From positions 263,109 to 327,108 of the forward strand of contig NZ_JH815205.1 of the NCBI RefSeq assembly GCF_000296465.1: 64,000 nucleotides of DNA. Direction: 5' to 3'. Of this stretch, positions 1 to 62,652 are shown piece after piece (the first letter of the stretch is position 1; the number at the start of each line of letters is the position of its first letter). Both the position numbers and the translations under genes were made by a program. This stretch comes from Barnesiella intestinihominis YIT 11860. Its GTDB lineage: Bacteria > Bacteroidota > Bacteroidia > Bacteroidales > Barnesiellaceae. Under the pieces are notes generated by a model that saw nothing but the letters and a program-made list of their open reading frames with translations, did not search any database and was not told the DNA's origin.

Positions 1-1200
1 CGACATCCACAGCTTCGGTAAAGGGCTTATGCCCGATTATTATCCATGCAAAACTCCTCGACTAGTGAGCTGTTACGCACTCTTTAAATGAATGGCTGCT
101 TCCAAGCCAACATCCTAGCTGTCTTTGCAGTTTTACTTCGTTTGTTCAACTTAGCCCTTATTTCGGGACCTTAGCCGGTGGTCTGAGTTGTTCCTCTTTC
201 GGACATGGACCTTAGCACCCATGCCCTCACTCCCGAAGACCAAGTGATAGTATTCGGAGTTTGTCAAGACTTGATAGGCGGTGAAGCCCTCGCATCTTAT
301 CAGTCGCTCTACCTCTATCACTCTGCTTCGAGGCTGCACCTAAATGCATTTCGGGGAGTACGAGCTATCTCCAAGTTTGATTGGCCTTTCACTCCTACCC
401 TCAGTTCATCCGTAAGCTTTTCAACGCTTATCGGTGCGGTCCTCCAATTGGTGTTACCCAACCTTCAACCTGACCAAGGGTAGATCACTTGGTTTCGCGT
501 CTACTCCCGCTGACTGTACGCCTTGTTCGGACTTGCTTTCGCTTCGGCTGCGCGACTGAATCGCTTAACCTTGCCAGCGAGAGTAACTCGTAGGTTCATT
601 ATGCAAAAGGCACGCCGTCACACTTTAACATGCTCCGACCGCTTGTAGGCGCATGGTTTCAGGGTCTGTTTCACTCCTCTGTTCGAGGTTCTTTTCACCT
701 TTCCTTCACAGTACTGGTTCGCTATCGGTCTCTCGGGAGTATTTAGCCTTACGGGATGGGCCCCGCTGATTCGCCCCGGATTTCTCGTGTCCTGGGTTAC
801 TCAGGTGTCCACTAGGCTTCTGTCGGTTTTCGCGTACCGGGCTGTCACCGTCTCTGGCTACGATTTCCATCGTATTCCGCTAACTTATTTCTTGCCGTGT
901 CGTGGATCCTTCTACCCCACTCGTGCCGTAACACGAGTGGTTTGGGCTGTTCCGCGTTCGCTCGCCACTACTGGCGGAATCATTGTTATTTTCTTTTCCT
1001 GCGGGTACTTAGATGTTTCAGTTCCCCGCGTTGGCTTACCGCTTGGCGGTATGGCCATTGCTGGCCGGGTTGCCCCATTCGGATATTTACGGGTCTACGG
1101 CTATTTGCGCCTTACCGTAACTTTTCGCAGCTTATCACGTCCTTCTTCGCCTCCGAGAGCCTAGGCATCCTCCATGCGCCCTTGTTTACTTTCTTCCGCG
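1..1200 (-). rRNA. 23S ribosomal RNA, 5' part
   Basis: The reverse complement reads as the 5' part of a bacterial 23S rRNA. The conserved start region (GGATGCCTAGGC, then GAAGAAGGACGTG) lies near 1140-1175, so the 5' end is at about 1200. The gene runs off the window at base 1, so its 3' half and any 5S gene are outside. It is the third element of a 16S-Ile-Ala-23S operon on the minus strand. The exact 5' end is estimated. Confidence 0.95.
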
Positions 1201-1296
1201 TCTTCCGTCTCTGCTTAGAGACGGCGACGTTAGGGGTTGATATGGGTTTGCTTTGCTCGTTTACTCTTCTTTTTCCATCATGTCAAGGATCTTTCG

Positions 1297-1370
1297 TGGA
1301 GAATAACGGATTCGAACCGTTGACCCCCTGCTTGCAAAGCAGGTGCTCTAGCCAGCTGAGCTAATCCCCC
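1297..1370 (-). tRNA. tRNA-Ala (UGC)
   Basis: The minus strand folds as a 74-nt cloverleaf. The acceptor arms GGGGGAT and ATTCTCC pair with two G-U pairs, the T arm contains GGTTCGAATCC, and the anticodon loop CTTGCAA-type gives TGC. The discriminator is A at 1297 and no CCA is encoded. It sits in the 16S-23S spacer. Confidence 0.95.
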
Positions 1371-1393
1371 CTTTTACCACCTGACCTCCGGCC

Positions 1394-1470
1394 TGGTAGT
1401 CCCAGGCAGATTTGAACTGCCGACCTCTACATTATCAGTGTAGCGCTCTAACCTACTGAGCTATAGGACT
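1394..1470 (-). tRNA. tRNA-Ile (GAU)
   Basis: The minus strand gives a 77-nt tRNA with acceptor arms AGTCCTA and TGGGACT, anticodon GAT in the loop CTGATAA, T-loop GTTCAAATC, and an encoded CCA at 1394-1396. It lies 23 nt upstream of tRNA-Ala in the rRNA spacer, the usual Ile-Ala order. Confidence 0.95.
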
Positions 1471-1585
1471 ATTCTTCAAATCGTGCCTGCGGCGGGTTGT
1501 TTTCCTTCTTTTTATATTGAACGAAGCGTGTAGTACCAAGAGAGAGCTTGGTCTTTTCCAGTCTTATTGCAGGTTTTGCTTCTCC

Positions 1586-3118
<1,533 letters not shown>

Positions 3119-3272
3119 TATTTTCTTTATTCTTTATTATACCTTCGAAGCGTTACCTGACCGAATTGACTTCTTTCTCTCTTATTTCCTGTACTACACT
3201 TGCTTCTTCAATTCCTTCAATGAACTTGGCAAAAGTTCCCCGGGGCGTGCCCCGTTTCCTCTTTTGCGGTTG

Positions 3273-3482: not shown

Positions 3483-4733
3483 TTATCTTTTTACCTTTAT
3501 TTTCTTACCAGACAAATCTTCTATTTCTGCATTAACACTTAACCGGAAGCGATCGCAACTATCAAATCCATGAACCTTCTTCGGTGTTTCCCCTACAAAG
3601 CAGGAACTTTGCAACGATGAATAATGTGCACAATTCCTACATATCAATTTCCCTTTATGAACAAATGTCTGTTCTTTTTTCCCATATCGATCTTTCACTC
3701 CAAAAGAAACATAATTGCCCAGCCCCAATCCATGATGGACAATCTCGATAATACCTACCACCAAAAGACAACACAATAGCAGTACAAACAAGCCGATGAT
3801 ATTGGTGAACATATAAATCATTCCTACAATACCTACAAAATAAACCATCGACCACAATAGTCCTGCCCGCAGACTACCCCGCTGGACGAAACTCTTAACC
3901 ATCAAGAATATTTGGAGACCCTGTAAGACCAACAGCAACCCCAATGAGAGAGCCATACCGGGTTGCCAAAACAATCGCGACGCCATATATCCCAAGAGGC
4001 ACAAGGGCATAGAATATACACCTATCCGCCGACCACCAGACCCGATGGAATGTACAAGCTGAATGTCGTCAAGAGTAGCGGTGAACGAGGTCCACTGATT
4101 GATACATATAAGCGCTACCAGAATATACAATATGAGATATACGAACATTCCCAACGCTCCATATCCGGCATATCCGTAAAACCAAAGCGCCTGATCGCCA
4201 TGCCCCGCCATATAGACCACTTCTATTATGCTCAATGACAAAAACACCACGATGTTCAGTTTGTACCGCCACCCTTCCAACCAATTACCTCTTACCCGGT
4301 GGACCCATAACAAGAAGCACGACAAAATGAAAATCGCCCATACAAAAGTCATCGCGACATTGGCGTTAACAATCCACGTCCACCTCTCTCCATACAACGG
4401 CAGAGGCAAAATATTTTTCAAGAAGGATAGATTTTCATCTTTTTCGGCTAAATTCCCCGCCTCAACTTCTTCGAGATAATTGGCATTCACATACGCCACC
4501 TTACCATTAAAGTTGATTTTCGCCCAAGCATCTTCAACCGACTCCGCTATGACAGTGTCGCTTTTTGTAATAGTTCCAATTTTTTCACTTTGTACAGACG
4601 GCTGCTCACGGACATTCAAATTCGAGACACTAACGGCACGATACGAGACAACCTCTGCCGAACAAACCGCACACATAAAAGAAGAGAGAATGAAGCCAAA
4701 CAAAACTGTTTGAATACGAGTAATCGTTTTCAT
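3483..4733 (-). CDS. SH3-domain multi-pass membrane protein with Cys-rich tail
   Basis: 416 aa. Residues 1-26 look like a signal peptide. Residues about 30-92 form a bacterial SH3 (SH3_3) domain with the typical LNVREQPS and AYVNANYL motifs. Several hydrophobic helices follow between about 120 and 345. The C-terminus is soluble and has four cysteines (C365, C368, C378, C393; CxxC-x9-C-x14-C) that could bind zinc or an iron-sulfur centre. The SH3 part suggests periplasmic cell-wall binding. I know no named family for the whole architecture, so the function is unknown. The gene is monocistronic, with a promoter at 4778-4808. Confidence 0.75.
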   Translation of the reverse strand: MKTITRIQTVLFGFILSSFMCAVCSAEVVSYRAVSVSNLNVREQPSVQSEKIGTITKSDTVIAESVEDAWAKINFNGKVAYVNANYLEEVEAGNLAEKDENLSFLKNILPLPLYGERWTWIVNANVAMTFVWAIFILSCFLLWVHRVRGNWLEGWRYKLNIVVFLSLSIIEVVYMAGHGDQALWFYGYAGYGALGMFVYLILYILVALICINQWTSFTATLDDIQLVHSIGSGGRRIGVYSMPLCLLGYMASRLFWQPGMALSLGLLLVLQGLQIFLMVKSFVQRGSLRAGLLWSMVYFVGIVGMIYMFTNIIGLFVLLLCCLLVVGIIEIVHHGLGLGNYVSFGVKDRYGKKEQTFVHKGKLICRNCAHYSSLQSSCFVGETPKKVHGFDSCDRFRLSVNAEIEDLSGKKIKVKR

Positions 4734-8148: not shown

Positions 8149-8232
8149 CAAATATAGCAAAAGGTAAGGGGTAAGGCAAGATGAAAACAAGTTTTTTTCA
8201 CTCCGTTCTGCCCAAACTTCATTTTATATCGC
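8149..8232 (-). promoter_or_regulatory. promoter repeat, single copy, upstream of DUF3127 gene
   Basis: Minus strand: CTTG (8177-8180), 20 nt, TATATTTG (8149-8156). The spacer contains TTACCTTTTGC next to the -7 box, matching the other family members. A dyad AAAACaaGTTTT (8184-8195) lies just upstream of the -33 box, followed by TCACTCCG as in the copy at 17607-17680. Confidence 0.7.
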
Positions 8233-15928: not shown

Positions 15929-17386
15929 TTATTCCAACGCAACTTTTTCCAAAATCAAAACCAAATGGTTCCAAAATTTCTCTACCGCCGGAATATGCAT
16001 CTTCTCATCGGGCGAATGAACTCCCCGCAATGTAGGACCAAATGAAATCATATCGAGCTGAGGATATTTCGTTAAAAACAATCCACACTCCAATCCGGCA
16101 TGAATAGCCTTGATAGCAGGTGTCTGTTGGTATAATTCTTGATAAGCCTCGACTGCAATATCTTTAATGCGAGAGTGCATATTGGGTTTCCAGCCCGGAT
16201 ACCCGTCGCCATGAGAAGGTTCAGCTCCGGCCAAACGGAACAGACACTCAACTTGATAAGCGATATCGTATTTCTCCGACTCTACCGAACTGCGCTGACT
16301 GGTTGCCACGACAATCTTACCCGGCTCGGTCATTTTAACAGATGCCAAATTGGTCGAAGTCTCCACCAAGCCCTCTATATCATGACTCATGGCTATTACT
16401 CCGTGAGGAGCTGCATAAAGAGCGCTTATCAAAGCACGTGCAACTTTATCCTCTATCATAAATTCGGGAGTATCGGCAGTCACCATGTCCACAGTCACAT
16501 TGGGATCAACTCCGCTCAGTTCAGCAGCGACATCGGCAGCATAATGATTCAACTCGGCTCGAACAGCCTCTTTTTCCTCGGGGTTTACCGCGATAACAGC
16601 CATTGCCTCCCGCGGTATGGCATTGCGCAAATTACCACCGTCGATAGCACACAAATGCACTTCGTGACGTTGCATACACAACCATAAAAAACGAGCCAAC
16701 AATTTATTGGCGTTTCCTCGACCCAAATGAATATCCCCGCCGGAGTGGCCTCCCAAAAGATTCTTTACCTCGACACGTAAATAAAATTTACCGGCGGGTA
16801 ATGCTTCTTGCTTATATGTAAAAGCCGATGTCGTATCGATACCTCCGGCACAGCCGATAAAAATCTCGGCTTCATCTTCCGAATCGAGATTCAATAAATA
16901 TTTGCCATCGATCATTCCGGACTCTAATCCGAAAGCTCCTGTCAAGCCCGTCTCCTCATCGACCGTAAACAGAGCTTGTATCCGTCCGTGCTTCAACTCT
17001 TTATCGGCAAGAACAGCCATAGCTGCCGCCATACCTATACCGTTATCGGCCCCTAATGTCGTTCCGCGAGCCTTCACCCATTCTCCATCTATATACGTTT
17101 CGATAGGATCTCGCTCAAAATCATGCTTCACATCTCCGTTTTTCTCACACACCATATCCATGTGAGCTTGCAATATTACCGTAGGAGCTCCTTCACAACC
17201 CGGAGTAGCTTCTTTGGTAATAACTACATTCCCGGTTTTATCAACCTTTACTTCAAGGTTCTGCTCCTTAGCGAAGTTCAATAAAAACTCACGAATACGT
17301 TCCTCCTTTTTCGAAGGGCGGGGAACCCCGGTTATCGCATCAAAATAGTGCCAAATTGATGTCGGTTTCAGCTCTTTTATGTCCAT
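15929..17386 (-). CDS. pepD: cytosolic beta-alanyl/aminoacyl-histidine dipeptidase (M20C)
   Basis: 485 aa, the usual PepD length. It hydrolyses Xaa-His dipeptides such as carnosine with two metal ions. Metal-site motifs are AHMDMVCEKN (H75, D77), GADNGIGMA, DEETGLTGA and the second-half GGHSGGDIHLGRGNA. No signal peptide is seen. It has a long leader if transcribed from the repeat promoter at 17607-17680; a nearer minus-strand TATCTTTG box lies at 17537-17544. Confidence 0.95.
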   Translation of the reverse strand: MDIKELKPTSIWHYFDAITGVPRPSKKEERIREFLLNFAKEQNLEVKVDKTGNVVITKEATPGCEGAPTVILQAHMDMVCEKNGDVKHDFERDPIETYIDGEWVKARGTTLGADNGIGMAAAMAVLADKELKHGRIQALFTVDEETGLTGAFGLESGMIDGKYLLNLDSEDEAEIFIGCAGGIDTTSAFTYKQEALPAGKFYLRVEVKNLLGGHSGGDIHLGRGNANKLLARFLWLCMQRHEVHLCAIDGGNLRNAIPREAMAVIAVNPEEKEAVRAELNHYAADVAAELSGVDPNVTVDMVTADTPEFMIEDKVARALISALYAAPHGVIAMSHDIEGLVETSTNLASVKMTEPGKIVVATSQRSSVESEKYDIAYQVECLFRLAGAEPSHGDGYPGWKPNMHSRIKDIAVEAYQELYQQTPAIKAIHAGLECGLFLTKYPQLDMISFGPTLRGVHSPDEKMHIPAVEKFWNHLVLILEKVALE

Positions 17387-17606: not shown

Positions 17607-17680
17607 CAAATATAGTGAAAGGTAAGAGAAGGACAAAATGGACAAGTCCATTTTTCACTCCGAACCTCGGTCTATATTCG
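17607..17680 (-). promoter_or_regulatory. promoter repeat, single copy, upstream of pepD
   Basis: Minus strand: TTTG (17634-17637), 19 nt, TATATTTG (17607-17614), with TTACCTTTCAC abutting the -7 box. Overlapping the -33 box is a perfect dyad AAAATGGACAAGTCCATTTT (17635-17654). The far side reads TCACTCCGAACC...CTATATTC, as in the tandem copies at 21164-21361. Confidence 0.7.
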
Positions 17681-17701
17681 ATGAAATCAAATATAGTCAA
17701 A

Positions 17702-17884
17702 ATGTGGAATATTTTACTTTTTACCGTAGGGTTTGTTGCAGTGGCTGTCGTTCTTTTGGGAATAAGAGTTTTCTTCGTGAAAGGAGGTCGTTTCCCGAGT
17801 TCGCACATCAGCGACAACCGGCATTTACGAAATAAAGGAATCGTTTGTGCTGTATCGACCGATGCCCTAGAACGGAAAAAATGA
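17702..17884 (+). CDS. small conserved membrane protein
   Basis: 60 aa from ATG at 17702 (an in-frame ATG at 17681 would add seven). There is one membrane helix (about residues 3-24), then a basic conserved segment VFFVKGGRFPSSH-x3-NRHLRNKGI. I recall similar short proteins in many Bacteroidales with the pattern FxKxGRFPxxHxSxNxxLRxxGIxC. The function is unknown. It is 44 nt upstream of the OmpH-like gene on the same strand. Confidence 0.65.
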   Translation: MWNILLFTVGFVAVAVVLLGIRVFFVKGGRFPSSHISDNRHLRNKGIVCAVSTDALERKK

Positions 17885-20144: not shown

Positions 20145-21140
20145 CTATTTTCCTTTTCGCAAACGCACCTCTTCTGCCTCGTCCCTACCTCTGCCTAACA
20201 GAACTTTATAAAAAAACGCTTTCAGAAAACCCATGCCATATCCCCCCAACTGTATTATACTGGCGACTACCGACAAGGCTGCTATTTTCAACCGTTTGTT
20301 CACGCACCATGAAACTAAGAAAACAGCAAACAAATACATCGCTAACGGCAAGATAGCCGGCCACCAGAAAAAAGAGGCGACTATCATGGCCAACGTGCCT
20401 ATGACAAAACATGCCGGAAACCAATGAACCAGTTTCAACGTATCAGGATAGAGTAAATAAAGGGAAATGCGCGACATGCCGAAGATATAAATCTGTCTGA
20501 AAAACAAACGCATACTAATTCTTCGTTTATGATAGACAAACGCATCGCGGATAAGAGATATATCGAACCCGGCCTGACGAATGCGGGTACTCATATCGAT
20601 GTCTTCACTGAACATTTCTCTAAATCCCCCGACTCGATCATAAACCTCTCTCGAAAATCCCATATTGAATGTTCTCGGCGTAAATTTTTCAAGTTGAACT
20701 TTTCCGCCTCTGATTCCTCCTGTCGTCAGGAATGACGTCATCGAGTAATTTATTGCCTTCTGAACGTCACTGAACGAATCGTGAGCAGCATCGGGCCCGC
20801 CGAAACAATCGGTATAATGCCGATTCAATACTGCATTTAAAGCCTCGAAATAACCTTCCGGAATCACACAATCCGAATCAAAAAAAATGAAATAACTCCC
20901 CACGGCTCTTTCCAGCCCATAATTACGGGCTATACTTCGACCCTCGTTTTCTTTATAATAATAGTGTATATCCACTATACTAGCATATCTTTTCACGGCA
21001 TCGGCACAACATACCGTCGAACCGTCTTCTACTATTATCACTTCAAAATCTTTATAGGTCTGTTTCGACAGACTTTCCAAAAGATCATTGACCTCGTCGG
21101 GACGATTATATACCGGAATTATGATCGAAAAATAAGGCAT
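20145..21140 (-). CDS. family 2 glycosyltransferase
   Basis: 331 aa. The GT-A fold is at residues about 4-200, with IIIPVYNRPDEV, VEDGST and the metal-binding FFDSDC motif. Two or three hydrophobic helices follow near 240-310, suggesting membrane attachment. Donor and acceptor cannot be told. It is the first gene of a pair with radC, and the start at 21140 lies 24 nt after the nearest TATATTTG box. Confidence 0.88.
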   Translation of the reverse strand: MPYFSIIIPVYNRPDEVNDLLESLSKQTYKDFEVIIVEDGSTVCCADAVKRYASIVDIHYYYKENEGRSIARNYGLERAVGSYFIFFDSDCVIPEGYFEALNAVLNRHYTDCFGGPDAAHDSFSDVQKAINYSMTSFLTTGGIRGGKVQLEKFTPRTFNMGFSREVYDRVGGFREMFSEDIDMSTRIRQAGFDISLIRDAFVYHKRRISMRLFFRQIYIFGMSRISLYLLYPDTLKLVHWFPACFVIGTLAMIVASFFWWPAILPLAMYLFAVFLVSWCVNKRLKIAALSVVASIIQLGGYGMGFLKAFFYKVLLGRGRDEAEEVRLRKGK

Positions 21141-21163: not shown

Positions 21164-21361
21164 CAAATATAGAGAAAGGTGAGCGCAAAGGCAAACGGAA
21201 ATCTCATTTCCGATTTGACTCTGCCGAACCGCATCCTATATTCTACAAATATAGTGAAAGTTGAGTGCAGAGACAAGAGGAAATCATATTTCCAGCTTGG
21301 CTATGCCGAAACAAATCCTACATTATACAAATATAGGTAAAGTCGAATGCATAAAAACAAA
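21164..21361 (-). promoter_or_regulatory. tandem 82-bp promoter repeats (three -7 boxes)
   Basis: TATATTTG occurs on the minus strand at 21164-21171, 21246-21253 and 21328-21335, exactly 82 bp apart. The -33 boxes are TTTG 21192-21195, CTTG 21274-21277 and TTTG 21358-21361 (spacers 20, 20 and 22). The first two units carry dyads CGGAAATctcATTTCCG (21196-21212) and GGAAATcatATTTCC (21279-21293) directly upstream of the -33 box. The array points at the glycosyltransferase-radC pair and abuts MITE copy 2. Confidence 0.8.
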
Positions 21362-28220: not shown

Positions 28221-28297
28221 TTCGGTAATTTTATCTCTTCTATCAATTTAGGATATAAAAGGCAATCTCGCATAGTTAAATTCAAAAACCGTTTTCA

Positions 28298-28411
28298 TTT
28301 GTCTCTGCTCCCGCCTTTCGCTATATTTGTAGAATATAGGATGCGTTTCGGCATAGCCAACCCCGAAATACAATTTCCGTTTGTCTCTGCTCTCACCTTT
28401 CGCTATATTTG
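28298..28411 (+). promoter_or_regulatory. tandem 82-bp promoter repeats upstream of porU1
   Basis: Two full promoters: TTTG 28298-28301, 20 nt, TATATTTG 28322-28329; and TTTG 28380-28383, 20 nt, TATATTTG 28404-28411. The period is exactly 82 bp. A dyad CGAAATacaATTTCCG (28364-28379) sits directly upstream of the second -33 box. The unit is homologous to the array at 21164-21361, which lies in the opposite orientation. Start of porU1 is 93 nt after the second box. Confidence 0.8.
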
Positions 28412-28503: not shown

Positions 28504-31500
28504 ATGAAAGATATTACGAGACATCACGATATATTCTTTGCAAACCGTTTGTCCTTATTGCGTATATGGCTGTGCATAAGCACGCTCTTTTTTACCATAG
28601 AGACATCGTTTGCACTCAACCCCAGCCGTTATGCGACCCAATCGCAACTCGCCGACGGATATTGGGTGAAAGTGGCTGTTTACGAATCCGGTATTCACCA
28701 AATCACCTATCGGGAACTCCGTAGATGGGGATTTTCCGATCCCTCGGCCGTGACCGTTTTCGGATACGGAGGCGCCATGCTACCCGAAACATTTTCTGAG
28801 AACGATATAGACGACCTGAATCAGTTACCCGTCATACGCACCGACAGTAAAATATTGTTCTACGCACAAGGCCCCATTTCATGGTCGTATAACGAAAAAA
28901 CCAAAGAATACGACCATGAACAAAACACATATTCTACCGCAGGATATTATTTCCTGACTGACAGTAAAAATCAATCGGCGACCATCGTCGAGCGAGAAGG
29001 GGGACAAACGACCGGATTACAGGACATAACTTCATTCGACGAACACGCCGTATACGAACAGGAATTATATTCTCCCGGTTCGACAGGACGATTATTTTTA
29101 GGCGACGATTTCCGCTATACGACATCTAAGAGTTTTACATTCGAACTTCCCGGCGTAGACAATTCCTCTCCTGTAAAATTAAGAACTTCTTTCGGAGCAA
29201 AAATATTAGGTGGAACTGCCACACTTGTCTTTGCCCGCAATGGACAAACTCTTCCATCGAGCAACACCGACAATATAGGAGCAGGATCGAGCAGTTCTTA
29301 TGACTTCGTAAGAATGACCTCGACGCTCAAAGAAATCGACCTCGACAGCGAGGAACTGGCTTTTACGCTCCTTTTCCGACAAAACGGAGGTTCTCTCTCT
29401 ATGGCCCGTCTCAATTATTTTCGGTTCAACTATAAAAGAAAATTGCAATTATACAACGGAAGTATCCAATTCCGGCTGGGTCAGCTCCCTGCGAACAGTT
29501 GCTATAACCTGCAAGGTTACTCGACGACGACTCATATCTGGGATATATCGGATCCTCTGAATCCCGTTTCTATCAAACCCAACGTCAACAACGGTAATGC
29601 ACGTTTCGTACCTACGAAAGGAAATGAAGAATACATTGCATTCGACGAACAAGCTACCGTTGCCTCGGTAGAGTTTATTGAAAAAGTGCCTAACCAAAAT
29701 TTACACGGTTTGACAACCCCCGACATGGTTATTCTCACGCCCAAAGAATATATCTCCTACGCCCAAAGCATCGCTCGATTGCATAATGAGAACGACGGTA
29801 TGGAGGTAGCTGTCATCGACCATGAAACCGTATTCAACGAATTCTCCTCGGGAACACCCGATGCGACAGCCTATCGACGACTGATGAAAATGTTTTTCGA
29901 TCGAAAAGGTGGCCTCGACGGAGAGCCTTTATACCTATTGCTTTTTGGAAAAGGATTATACGATAACCGAAAAATAGGAGAAACCGGTAAATATGTGAAA
30001 TACCCCACACTCCTCACATACCAGCACGGCAGCGGAACAGACGAACGTCAATCCTATACGACAGACGATTACTTCGGATTCCTCGACGACGATTCCGGGA
30101 ATAGAATAGCGTCGGATAAACTCCGTGTCAATATAGGCCGTTTGCCCATAAAAAGCGAACAAGAAGCCAAAGATGTGGTATCCAAATTATACAATTATAT
30201 AGAGAATAACGATAAGGGCTCTTGGAAAAATCAGGTTCTTGTCGTCGCCGACGATGAAAATTATGCCATTCACATGGAACAGGCCGAAGAGATTTGCAGC
30301 ATTATGGAGAATAGCGATGCCCACTGTTTCATCAACAAAGTCTACACGGATGCTTACACGGCAGAAATAGGCTCCACGGGACGAACATACCCTTCGGCCA
30401 AGAAAAAATTATTACAAATTTTAGATGACGGCGTTCTCGTAGTAGATTATATAGGTCACGGCAGTACCGTGGCATGGACACATGAAGATTTATTGAATAT
30501 AGGCGACATTCAATCCATGTATTTAAAAAGGTTGCCACTGTTTATCACAGCGACTTGTGACTTCGGACGTTACGATCACGAAGAAACATCGGGTGGAGAA
30601 ATCCTTTGCCTGAATCCGAACGGAGGAGGTATAGCCCTCATCACCACGACCCGAGTCGTTTATATCAGCGACAATCACTATCTCAACAGTGGTGTAGCGC
30701 AACAAATATTCAAAAAAAATGAAAATCACGAGTATCCACGACTCGGCGACATATTGCGTGAAGCGAAATGCAACATTGCACAAACAGACAGCAACAAATT
30801 GAACTACACCCTATTGGGAGATCCGGCTCTAAAATTATTATACCCCGATTACCAAATTAAGGTAACCGAAATAAACGGGCATGACATCACTCAAACCACA
30901 CCGACCATACAAGCGAGAGACTCCGTTTCTATAAAGGGAGAGATATATACCCCCGGCGGAGAAAAAGCGACCGATTATAACGGTATCATCTGTCCGACGG
31001 TCTATGATTCCGAAGTAACCGTAGTAACCCACGGCTATGGAGAGGAAGGCAAAGCCATAGAATTTAAAGAAAGGAGCAACCGCCTTTATGTGGGAAAAGA
31101 CTCTATCGTCAACGGCATTTTTGAAATTTCATTCAAAGTCCCGAGAGAAATCAACTTTGCCGATGACAAGGGATTGATAAATCTATATTGCTATAACGAT
31201 GAAGGTCAAGAGGGAAACGGCAATGAATCCAACTTTATCGTAGGAGGATTTAACGACGACTCGAACGAAGATTTTGAAGGTCCGCAGATATATTCTGCCT
31301 ACCTCAACTCCGAAGAGTTCAAATACGGCGATACGGTCAACGAATCGCCTCTGTTTATGGCCGAGGTGTATGATGAATCGGGAATAAACATATCCGATGC
31401 CGGTATCGGGCATCAGATGACTATTACCTTAGACGATAAAACCGTATATACCGACGTATCTTCTTACTTCCAACCTGCATTGGGCGAATTCGGCAGAGGG

Positions 31501-31938
31501 TTTATCGCATACCCTTTGAGCGGACTGAGCGAAGGGGAACACTCTTTACGATTAAAAGTGTGGGACACCGAAAACAATTCGTCGGAAACCGAAATAGGCT
31601 TTACGGTAAAGGCCGGATTAAAACCTGTTATTTATGACTTGTATGCCGATCGTAACCCGGCCAGCACTTCGACAAATTTCTATTTGAGACACAACAGACC
31701 GGATGCCGTGATAAACGTAACCATATCGGTATATAATCTGATGGGGGTAGAAGTATGGCGTTATACGGGAAAAGGTCTCTCCGACATGTACAAGTCCTAC
31801 CCGATTACATGGGATTTGACCGACGGTAGCGGAACTCGGGTTCCCGGTGGTATCTACTTGTACAAAGCGATTATATCGACCGACAACGAACACGAAACCA
31901 CTCGTTCGAAAAAACTCTGTGTGACCGGCAGAGAATAG
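28504..31938 (+). CDS. porU: type IX secretion sortase PorU, first copy
   Basis: 1144 aa, usual PorU length. PorU is a C25 (gingipain-like) cysteine protease on the cell surface that removes the C-terminal signal of T9SS cargo and attaches the cargo to the surface. A signal segment is near the N-terminus. The catalytic pair is H652 (DYIGHGS) and C685 (TATCDFGRYD), 33 residues apart, the spacing I recall for P. gingivalis PorU. The C-terminus (VWRYTGKG, GGIYLYKA) is a CTD-like module. Upstream are the 82-bp promoter repeats. It is paralogous to 33341-36751. Confidence 0.92.
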   Translation: MKDITRHHDIFFANRLSLLRIWLCISTLFFTIETSFALNPSRYATQSQLADGYWVKVAVYESGIHQITYRELRRWGFSDPSAVTVFGYGGAMLPETFSENDIDDLNQLPVIRTDSKILFYAQGPISWSYNEKTKEYDHEQNTYSTAGYYFLTDSKNQSATIVEREGGQTTGLQDITSFDEHAVYEQELYSPGSTGRLFLGDDFRYTTSKSFTFELPGVDNSSPVKLRTSFGAKILGGTATLVFARNGQTLPSSNTDNIGAGSSSSYDFVRMTSTLKEIDLDSEELAFTLLFRQNGGSLSMARLNYFRFNYKRKLQLYNGSIQFRLGQLPANSCYNLQGYSTTTHIWDISDPLNPVSIKPNVNNGNARFVPTKGNEEYIAFDEQATVASVEFIEKVPNQNLHGLTTPDMVILTPKEYISYAQSIARLHNENDGMEVAVIDHETVFNEFSSGTPDATAYRRLMKMFFDRKGGLDGEPLYLLLFGKGLYDNRKIGETGKYVKYPTLLTYQHGSGTDERQSYTTDDYFGFLDDDSGNRIASDKLRVNIGRLPIKSEQEAKDVVSKLYNYIENNDKGSWKNQVLVVADDENYAIHMEQAEEICSIMENSDAHCFINKVYTDAYTAEIGSTGRTYPSAKKKLLQILDDGVLVVDYIGHGSTVAWTHEDLLNIGDIQSMYLKRLPLFITATCDFGRYDHEETSGGEILCLNPNGGGIALITTTRVVYISDNHYLNSGVAQQIFKKNENHEYPRLGDILREAKCNIAQTDSNKLNYTLLGDPALKLLYPDYQIKVTEINGHDITQTTPTIQARDSVSIKGEIYTPGGEKATDYNGIICPTVYDSEVTVVTHGYGEEGKAIEFKERSNRLYVGKDSIVNGIFEISFKVPREINFADDKGLINLYCYNDEGQEGNGNESNFIVGGFNDDSNEDFEGPQIYSAYLNSEEFKYGDTVNESPLFMAEVYDESGINISDAGIGHQMTITLDDKTVYTDVSSYFQPALGEFGRGFIAYPLSGLSEGEHSLRLKVWDTENNSSETEIGFTVKAGLKPVIYDLYADRNPASTSTNFYLRHNRPDAVINVTISVYNLMGVEVWRYTGKGLSDMYKSYPITWDLTDGSGTRVPGGIYLYKAIISTDNEHETTRSKKLCVTGRE

Positions 31939-38905: not shown

Positions 38906-39029
38906 AACTCCCCGTTTTTTAACATTCTCAACATATACGTTTTTATGAACAGATTGTATCTGGCTTCGTAAAAGTTCGCTATTTTTGCAATAGATGCGAA
39001 ACAGGATACAACTCGACATAAAAATGAGC

Positions 39030-39069
39030 GAATACATTTTATTCGGTTTTCACCTTTCCGTATTTTTGC
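39030..39069 (+). promoter_or_regulatory. dyad-type promoter of mnmA operon
   Basis: The dyad CGAATAcatttTATTCG (39030-39046) is followed by TTTTCACCTTTCCG and TATTTTTG (39062-39069). The CACCTTTC next to the -7 box and the upstream dyad match the promoter-repeat family, although the sequence is otherwise diverged. The mnmA start is 17 nt after the -7 box. Confidence 0.5.
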
Positions 39070-61183: not shown

Positions 61184-61230
61184 AAAAACACCCGTTTTTA
61201 CATCTCTGCGCTCTCCTTTCACTATCTTTG
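61184..61230 (+). promoter_or_regulatory. dyad-type promoter of dacB
   Basis: The dyad AAAAACacccGTTTTT (61184-61199) lies directly upstream of a promoter ending in CTCTCCTTTCAC-TATCTTTG (-7 box 61223-61230). The CTCCTTTCAC next to the -7 box matches the promoter-repeat family. Confidence 0.55.
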
Positions 61231-61254
61231 TAACGAATGCAACAGACAAAAACA

Positions 61255-62652
61255 ATGGCAAAACGAATCTTATTATTTTTTCTCATATTCAGCGCATTAC
61301 CGGTCATAGCCACCACGCAGCAGATTATCGATAAATTCGTATCCGACCCGGATTTTATTCCGTCGTCGATAGGGATTTGCATTACCGACGTCAAAACGGG
61401 AGAAACTATCGCCTCTTACAACGAACGACAAGCCGTCATTCCGGCATCGACGATCAAAGTTATTACGACCGCTACGGCTCTGCGATTGTATCGTCCCTCA
61501 TTCTGTCTATACACGACAGTGGGACACACCGGAACAATCGACGAAACAGAAACTTTACACGGAGACCTTGTGATACACGGCGGCGGAGACCCGTCCTTAG
61601 GCTCGGCATACCGTTGTCGCCACACCGAAGATTTCATCGACCAAATCATACAAAGAATTCTGTCCAATCACATCAAATCGATCAAGGGTCGCATAGTTGT
61701 CGATAACTCCTTATTCGACGAGCCAGCCATCTCTCCCAAATGGATGGTAGAAGATATAGCTTGGGATTACGGCACAGGCTGCCATGCTTTTTCATACAAA
61801 GACAACCGAATAGAGATAAACCTGCGATACAATGGAAAATCGTATGACGTAACCGGAGTCAATCCGCCTAACCGTTTTGTCGTTGAGACCAGTTTGACAA
61901 AAGGCGAAAAAGAAAACATCACAGTCAAGTGTGAAAACAACCGATACACGATTTCGGGAACTATTCCCAAAAGAAAAGATCGATACCGTCTCTATTTGTC
62001 GATAGCCCGACCGGATAGCCTATTCATAACAGATTTACAAGAAAAATTTCAAACAGCGGGAATAGAGGTCAAAAACTCCAATCTCGGTCAACTCCCGGAA
62101 ACGACATGGTTTCACTATCCGTCCGACTATCTCGGAGATATAGTACACAGCCTGAATGTACGCAGCGACAACCTGTATGCCGAAAGCGTACTCCGACTCT
62201 TGTCTCTGTCGGATCATGAGAAAGGGAGCGCAGAAAAAGGCATCGACATAATCCGTAAATACTGGCAAAATTACGAAGCCGACTCTCTCGAACTATTCAT
62301 GTACGACGGTTCGGGATTGGCTCGCAACAATAAAGTTTCAGCCAAATATCTGAATTGCGTCCTCAAAGAAACAGCCCGAGACTCACTGATTGGAGAGTAT
62401 TTCGTGCAAACGCTTCCTTTGGCGGGAAAAGAAGGCTCTGTCGCCACAATTATAAAGCATGGAGAACTGCCCGGCGAACTACGACTGAAAAGCGGAAGCA
62501 TGAGCGATGTACACGCCTACGCCGGATATTACACGACTCCCCAAAACCGATATGCGATAGTCGTCATGATCAACAACTATACATGCACGAGGGCTCAACT
62601 GAAACAAAAAATATCTACCCTGTTGACTCAGGTTCTTTCTAAAAAAGAGTAA
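61255..62652 (+). CDS. dacB: D-alanyl-D-alanine carboxypeptidase/endopeptidase (PBP4, S13)
   Basis: 465 aa from ATG at 61255; an ATG at 61237 would sit at the predicted transcription start. The signal peptide is LFFLIFSALPVIA. The catalytic SxxK is S65-T-I-K68 (PASTIK), the SxN is SDN near residue 305, and the third motif is KSGS near 411. Class C penicillin-binding proteins trim or cut peptidoglycan cross-links in the periplasm. Its promoter has the dyad-type layout. Confidence 0.94.
   Translation: MAKRILLFFLIFSALPVIATTQQIIDKFVSDPDFIPSSIGICITDVKTGETIASYNERQAVIPASTIKVITTATALRLYRPSFCLYTTVGHTGTIDETETLHGDLVIHGGGDPSLGSAYRCRHTEDFIDQIIQRILSNHIKSIKGRIVVDNSLFDEPAISPKWMVEDIAWDYGTGCHAFSYKDNRIEINLRYNGKSYDVTGVNPPNRFVVETSLTKGEKENITVKCENNRYTISGTIPKRKDRYRLYLSIARPDSLFITDLQEKFQTAGIEVKNSNLGQLPETTWFHYPSDYLGDIVHSLNVRSDNLYAESVLRLLSLSDHEKGSAEKGIDIIRKYWQNYEADSLELFMYDGSGLARNNKVSAKYLNCVLKETARDSLIGEYFVQTLPLAGKEGSVATIIKHGELPGELRLKSGSMSDVHAYAGYYTTPQNRYAIVVMINNYTCTRAQLKQKISTLLTQVLSKKE

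Follow-up and report, generated by a model that had tools for sequence, protein, structure and literature searches.

The window examined here, a stretch of 64,000 nucleotides from Barnesiella intestinihominis YIT 11860, carries short palindromes upstream of several promoters, and their pairing is kept while the letters of their arms change. The palindromes are part of a repeat unit of about 80 bp that occurs throughout the 3.44 Mb genome, covaries as one long bulged hairpin, and varies between sister species in its presence at orthologous promoters. The unit is probably a dispersed repeat that bears a promoter and inserts at -7 boxes, and we lean slightly towards reading the palindromes as the apical stems of a non-autonomous promoter-borne repeat, a "hairpin promoter cassette". 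Units of this genome are referred to as own and those of other genomes as foreign or as belonging to relatives, with G-numbers for genomes and L-numbers for loci.

At up to three mismatches the core CACCTTTC-n2-TATATTTG occurred 10 times in the window against 0.87 expected, and 192 times genome-wide against 61 for the reversed control. The exact core was found 18 times in the genome and its reversed pattern not once. A sequence-only model was built from a 30-column alignment of 96 copies (A1), which covers the spacer and the -7 box only and is blind to the palindrome; 3 of 100 listed hits had been discarded as off-family and one for an N. At least 140 places in the genome matched the model at E<=10 among the best 150 of 3000 candidates scored. 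The best 120 of the 140 were kept and the 20 weakest left unused, and one copy with an N was excluded from the stem tests, leaving 119. The 120 copies group into 78 clusters, 42 of them single and 36 tandem (head-to-tail), with neighbouring copies spaced by 82-83 bp in 13 pairs, 86-90 bp in 15, and 61 to 173 bp in 14 others. The order of the unit is left block GGATGCGGTTCGGCATAG, central palindrome, spacer CTCTGCnCTCACCTTTC, and -7 box TAnnTTTG. Aligned units read left TATMTTTG, usually 13 or 17-21 nt ending in AAKATAGGAT, GCGGTTCGGCATAGYC, the palindrome, YCTCTGCnCTCACCTTTCnC, and TATMTTTG. The class I palindrome of the own genome is CGGAAAT-n3-ATTTCCG within CAAR...YTTG, and class II palindromes are AT-rich and locus-specific, for example AAAATGGAC/GTCCATTTT, AAAACAAAC/GTTTGTTTT, and AAAACGAA/TTCGTTTT.

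The best stem upstream of the spacer had a mean of 6.05 in the 119 copies compared to 4.27 in dinucleotide shuffles, and a stem p<=0.05 was reached by 49 copies where about 6 are expected. At the same position, a stem of at least 6 occurred in 64 of the 119 copies and in 3 of 97 control TAnnTTTG sites without the spacer motif, which lie up to 160 bp before open reading frames (ORFs) of the same loci and are candidate promoters only. Measured from the first T of the -7 box, the palindrome centre lies 32.5 bp upstream in 60 of the 119 copies and 30 bp upstream in 16. Weak spots are the dyad at 8184-8195, which is non-significant alone (p about 0.30), and the 53 copies without a close left block, 16 of which reach p<=0.05. 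Swapping right arms between loci lowered the pairing: 213 of 308 positions were paired in the inner arm of class I (82 rows with 44 different arm pairs) and 183 of 324 in class II (37 rows, 36 different), compared to 190.7 and 153.8 after swapping, and none of 5000 swaps reached the observed value in either class. Taken by themselves, the outer four class I pairs gave a weaker result, with 270 of 5000 swaps matching the observed pairing, and class II pairing fell from 0.58 to at most 0.44 once the centre was slid. The original prediction, made from the letters of the window, had held that the arms differ while pairing is kept, which was borne out; it was to fall if the region upstream of -33 proved no more palindromic than shuffled sequence, and the copies exceeded their shuffles.

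The covariation extends over the whole unit. Folded as DNA, one complete sister-species unit (L137) formed a single long hairpin, and two own stretches cut before the right -7 box (L060 and L063) formed two hairpins instead. Pairs were counted in 63 own units (A3; 3 of 66 were of other length and dropped) and in 70 of 103 foreign copies (A2; left block at the expected place with at most 4 mismatches). A five-helix structure, drawn from the very sequences on which it was counted, was paired in 92.1% of own and 90.2% of foreign cells, while slid versions reached at most 53.9%. Pairs altered on both sides made up 11 of 26 in own and 15 of 26 in foreign units; cells altered on both sides numbered 53 and 102 compared to 23.0 and 33.0 in shuffles, and 0 of 500 shuffles reached any of the five measures in A3 or in A2. 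The strongest foreign covariation was found at columns 34-55 (CG 28, UA 23, AU 7, GC 2), 17-71 (UA 39, CG 16), and 5-83 (GC 26, UA 24). Imperfect foreign pairs were 7-81 and 5-83, unpaired in 25 and 19 of the 70 units, respectively. The outer stem AAKATAG/CTATMTT and the inner GCAnAG stem covary, and the middle of the two halves pairs little.

A one-sided bulge in the left arm, of 1 nt in own and commonly 2 nt in foreign units, puts the inner and outer arms out of register, and both of them covary; such a bulge is easily accommodated by a folded strand, less so by a rigid dimer bound to duplex DNA. Cells with G.T and cells with A.C both fell below shuffled expectation in own (z -6.6 and -3.8) and in foreign units (z -9.3 and -7.9), and this joint depletion favours DNA over sense-strand RNA as the folded molecule. 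With DNA parameters the bottom strand was the better-folding one in 60 of 63 own and 65 of 70 foreign units; with RNA parameters this held for 27 of 63 own and 50 of 70 foreign units. In class II the bottom strand folded better in 23 of 37. The arms are largely species-specific: GGAAA[TC] arms occurred in 50 of the 63 own and none of the 70 foreign units, and GAAAAC/GTTTTC arms in 48 of the 70 foreign and one of the 63 own.

Class I units carry a -7 box at both ends. Picked by the body pattern alone, with the boxes excluded, 63 copies and no reversed controls were matched. All 63 had a left box, 60 exact and 3 with one mismatch; shuffling the left flanks gave 1 exact box and 24 one-mismatch boxes. 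The right box was likewise present in all 63 (57 exact, 6 with one mismatch). Among the 78 first copies, those with no other copy upstream, an upstream TAnnTTTG was found in 46, of which 40 were TATnTTTG, and the variable base of the latter equalled that of the copy's own box in 33 of 40. The matching base fits a target duplication, but it also fits a need for identical cores or the existence of sub-families. A second small dyad at the left end of units such as L060 mirrors the -7 box (CTATCTTTGTA-nn-TACGAAGATAG; TTTGCATaaaATGCGAAA), usually with G facing T, and it also varies in letters while pairing stays. Upstream of several first copies (L031-L096) stand older-looking promoters with a related spacer (TTTCTGCTCTTGGTTT... 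then a -7 box) and short palindromes such as CAAATAAATTTG, which resemble earlier layers of such elements.

Among sister species, an orthologous promoter may carry the unit in some genomes and lack it in others. The clearest case is mnmA, where the own site is filled and the relatives (8 of 8) lack the unit and show one -7 box each; both flanks can be aligned (6 of the 8 were also scored). The own promoter is longer by an insert of 81 bases, which closes with a second TATTTTTGCA and bears the target's T variant at both ends. The longest match between this insert and its 2-kb flanks is 10 bases. By eye, the site of the L064 gene (ABC ATPase, lptB-like) is filled in the own genome and in G007, which has two units, and empty in 7 relatives that show one TATCTTTG where the own left box stands. 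The site of the L080 gene, whose product had no Pfam match, is filled in the own genome and G001 and empty in 7 relatives, and that of recR is filled in the own genome and 5 relatives and empty in 3, again by eye; the units of the filled relatives at these two genes differ in arm type. At the M20 peptidase promoter the unit stands at the same place in 9 of 9 genomes, with a similar downstream flank; the own palindrome is class II and those of 8 of 8 relatives are class I-like. The divergent spacer between genes 27876 and 28504 is short in G006 and G007, with two facing -7 boxes and no unit, while the own genome has two units toward 28504 and G001, G002, and G004 have units toward 27876, whose outer boxes there are decayed (TATATTCG, TATTTTAG, TATCTTTA). 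G003 retains the right part of the unit only. A GC-rich terminator-like hairpin occurs at this place before gene 27876 of G003; a terminator was rejected on it, as it is a single junction with other inserted DNA.

A same-strand ORF lies next downstream of 67 of the 78 clusters, at a median of 29 bp after the -7 box, and 11 are without one; upstream neighbours were divergent in 40 and co-directional in 38, all by simple ORF picking in which some neighbours are surely wrong. Genes downstream of units include, by Pfam, mnmA, M20 peptidase, recR, methylenetetrahydrofolate reductase, BPG-independent phosphoglycerate mutase, and an ABC ATPase. The class I consensus of TTTG, 20 nt, and TATMTTTG agrees with the Bacteroidota primary (sigma ABfr) promoter pattern, which has TTTG near -33 and TAnnTTTG at -7, and the fold overlaps the -33 TTTG. 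Judged by their placement just before ordinary genes, such as mnmA and recR, the units would very likely be live promoters of such genes. The sites in the window are as follows.

8149-8200, minus strand: -7 box (8149-8156) and weak palindrome (8182-8200), before a DUF3127 gene.
17607-17614, minus strand: gene-proximal (right) -7 box TATATTTG of the M20 peptidase promoter; the gene lies at 15929-17386 (minus strand, Pfam M20).
17635-17654, minus strand: central class II palindrome AAAATGGAC/GTCCATTTT of the M20 peptidase promoter, an exact dyad.
17656-17679, minus strand: left block GAATATAGACCGAGGTTCGGAGTG of the M20 peptidase promoter.
17688-17695, minus strand: left -7 box TATATTTG of the M20 peptidase promoter, 81 bp from the right box.
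21164-21335, minus strand: tandem array with -7 boxes at 21164-21171, 21246-21253, and 21328-21335 (period 82), before a glycosyltransferase gene (20145-21140, minus strand).
21196-21212, minus strand: class I palindrome CGGAAATgagATTTCCG of the glycosyltransferase array.
21279-21293, minus strand: class I palindrome GGAAATatgATTTCC of the glycosyltransferase array.
28278-28300, plus strand: palindrome region AAATTCAAAAACCGTTTTCATTT of the first unit at the Peptidase_C25 promoter, weak alone in the stem test.
28322-28411, plus strand: -7 boxes at 28322-28329 and 28404-28411 (period 82) and palindrome at 28364-28379, before the Peptidase_C25 gene (28504-31938).
38980-38987, plus strand: left -7 box TATTTTTG of the mnmA promoter, at the position of the relatives' single -7 box.
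38988-39068, plus strand: 81 bases ending in the second -7 box TATTTTTG (39061-39068), with TATTTTTGCA at both ends, absent in 8 of 8 relatives.
39021-39040, plus strand: mnmA unit palindrome AAAATG/CATTTT, with an alternative CGAATA/TATTCG at 39029-39045.
61184-61230, plus strand: palindrome AAAAAC/GTTTTT (61184-61199), spacer, and -7 box (61223-61230), before a Peptidase_S13 gene (61237-62652).

The dyads originally predicted at 8184-8195, 17635-17654, 21196-21212, 21279-21293, 28364-28379, and 61184-61199 all exist. One given as 39030-39046 is present at 39029-39045, out of the usual family register, which at mnmA is held by AAAATG/CATTTT. The unit had been drawn too small, each dyad being the tip of a repeat of about 80 bp that in class I is boxed at both ends and whose presence varies between species. 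A small ORF of 60 amino acids (17702-17884, plus strand, start MWNILLFTVGFVAVAVVLLGIRVFFVKGG; no Pfam match) points away from the M20 peptidase gene, with the element between the two; its ATG lies 6 bp past the repeat's outer -7 box. An rRNA operon occupies positions 1-3119 of the window (minus strand), with 16S at 1588-3119, a partial 23S, and two tRNAs; the Rfam search of the window returned rRNA and tRNA only.

Nine genomes of the genus each had at least 58-149 matches at E<=1. Among 99 genomes drawn from the order, searched with stricter filters than within the genus, 8 matched including the own one; four other families had at least 27-43 copies and three genomes or families at least 1-2. 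The exact sister-type class I pattern occurred in 14 named stretches, counted without records near the own genome, including Barnesiella, Caccoplasma, Gallibacteroides, and Phocaeicola faecicola records. A unit with both -7 boxes lies on a circular Phocaeicola massiliensis plasmid (46-kb record; L309, around 4000-4101), which hints at horizontal transfer. The IMG/VR viral contigs had no exact match to either of two patterns. One query matched 13 "phage" records, and the two examined, MT836672 (L310) and MT837279 (L311), are labelled "Bacteriophage sp." and carry UvrA and ParA/ParB genes (Pfam) besides the repeats; because of these genes they are probably mislabelled Barnesiella-like chromosome. 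The Bacteroides-type spacer TGCACTCGGTTTGCACTATCTTTG was rejected as a wide sister family, with 12 matches in total in 4 of the 99 genomes. A literature search of titles and abstract starts, with most subscription journals outside it, returned no description of such a repeat in Barnesiella.

Box entry would proceed by the unit entering at the -7 box of an existing promoter, with the box duplicated. The unit would supply its own TTTG (-33) and 20-bp spacer and so make the gene-proximal box a complete promoter, and the old -7 box may decay after insertion. The box at both ends and the 10-bp repeat at mnmA could reflect target duplication, but some of the box may come from the element. Several observations weigh against this account. 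For 32 of the 78 first copies, mostly not class I, no upstream TAnnTTTG was found in the stretch scanned, which is why our confidence in box entry is good but not higher. Exact boxes are as frequent on the left as on the right in class I (60 and 57 of 63), so that decay of the old box is not general, and the internal base K of AAKATAG tends to track the variable base of the -7 box, so that sub-families could explain the matching boxes. Only mnmA aligns cleanly on both flanks, with the L064 gene and recR aligning mainly on the left and the L080 gene mainly on the right. As to the fold, 15 of 63 cells of the own pair 31-50 are G.U, and the copies are related, which makes the covariation counts non-independent. 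A bidirectional promoter was considered and rejected, since the reverse -7 of class I usually ends in CG or CT and not TG, and it is kept as a possible origin only. Inverted, the left half looks like the right, though the similarity between the two is only degenerate. Near-symmetric head-to-head units with -7 boxes outward on both sides were seen by eye at L153 around 1655 (G096) and at own L042 around 1501 (minus strand), possibly the ancestral bidirectional form.

That the fold also serves the handling of the element itself as DNA appears somewhat more plausible than otherwise. It would then be the substrate of a putative trans-acting recombinase or transposase, a step less certain than box entry, and recognition by shape would let the sequence drift while pairing and bulges persist. 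A putative link to the CTnDOT integrase core GTANNTTTGC was considered and not retained. The original prediction had offered selection for a hairpin or cruciform, or locus-specific dimeric regulators, as the cause of the pairing. The former gains from covariation in five helices of the roughly 80-bp unit, with mutation bias still to be set beside it; the latter gave way, as the sites are one repeat family at 78 places with left block and spacer in common. A double-stranded operator centred near -41 to -43, bound by one or several dimeric regulators whose specificity the arms would track, is improbable: it would account for the two preferred centre positions and the largely species-specific arms, but not for covarying arms that are out of register across the bulge, different arm classes at one orthologous promoter, 78 places before different genes, and helices that reach far past operator size. 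A conserved half-site was not common to the promoters, and the arms vary by class and species. A role of the fold in transcription, as a supercoil-driven cruciform, a terminator that shields against transcription arriving from upstream, or a structured leader in RNA started at the upstream -7 box, seems unlikely but deserves slightly more credit. RNA from the left box would include most of the fold, which overlaps the -33 TTTG, and class II arms are A-rich on the left and T-rich on the right. However, G.T is depleted at least as much as A.C, so that sense RNA folding shows no sign, upstream neighbours are divergent about as often as co-directional, class I is without a T tract, and no Rfam family reached its gathering score in 13 repeat-bearing loci (43,014 bases), where all 3 hits at E<=1 fell below it.

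Two further explanations dispense with a dedicated function or enzyme. Template-switch correction of quasi-palindromes yields paired changes without function, and such a mutation bias could keep the pairing without selection. We consider it very improbable, as the consensus retains the one-sided bulge and the T.T and T.C mismatches that separate helices, right beside covarying pairs, and five separated helices covary. Short-homology recombination or copy slippage between -7 boxes, with the arrays as tandem duplications, would suit class I units that start and end in the same 8-bp box and neighbour pairs at 82-83 bp (13) and 86-90 bp (15). This too is quite improbable as the means of spread, since copies stand at 78 dispersed places and the mnmA insert, which bears the target's variant at both ends, is no copy of its 2-kb flanks, with a match of just 10 bases.

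If the reading of a promoter-bearing repeat with a shape-kept fold is true, a spreading element that inserts at the -7 box and restores it would be displacing promoters in a gut genus, and this would explain how promoter sequences turn over while expression is maintained. It would also be a natural case of DNA shape being inherited, not letters, and would allow a direct test of shape-recognising recombination outside integrons.

Correia elements of Neisseria are small terminal-inverted-repeat elements whose ends, of about 26 bp, supply promoters, and they are TA-targeted. In contrast, the halves of the Barnesiella unit share no more than their degenerate inverted similarity, and its target is TAnnTTTG. 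Primary sigma promoters of Bacteroides have TTTG near -33 and TAnnTTTG at -7 (PMC7366714). The Barnesiella repeat has the same two motifs, but also conserves the spacer, the left block, and the fold. Mobile promoters and putative mobile promoters (see PMC8049555) are likewise short dispersed promoter-carrying repeats, whereas the Barnesiella unit targets the -7 box, has a box at both ends, and has a covarying fold. BrickBuilt of Porphyromonas gingivalis, a miniature inverted-repeat transposable element (MITE), has 23-nt repeats, 19 copies, and target-site duplications of varying length and sequence; like the Barnesiella unit it is intergenic, promoter-bearing, of MITE type, and from Bacteroidales, while -7 targeting is not mentioned for it in the text covered (PMC4596501). 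The MITE traits of the Barnesiella unit are that it is short, non-coding, multi-copy, and present or absent at orthologous sites.

Integron cassettes stand in arrays. Their attC sites are long imperfect hairpins of variable sequence and kept structure, with one-sided extra-helical bases and a variable terminal structure (PMC2727003). The Barnesiella unit resembles them in keeping structure over sequence, in its one-sided extra-helical bases, and in a better-folding bottom strand with DNA parameters (60/63 and 65/70), a bias that is absent with RNA parameters and in class II. By this analogy it is conceivable, though doubtful, that ORF-less "promoter cassettes" enter the -7 box by site-specific integration of one folded DNA strand whose shape is recognised. 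The attachment site would then be the promoter itself, and, with the same reserve, tandem promoter arrays would have formed and housekeeping genes been re-wired in Barnesiella and several other Bacteroidales families. Unlike attC, the unit ends in CTATMTTTG and AAKATAG (A2, A3) and has no ORF, and its ends are promoter -7 boxes. The unit is not a member of attC, because the R box core GTT/AAC is absent, but it works like attC in placing shape over sequence.
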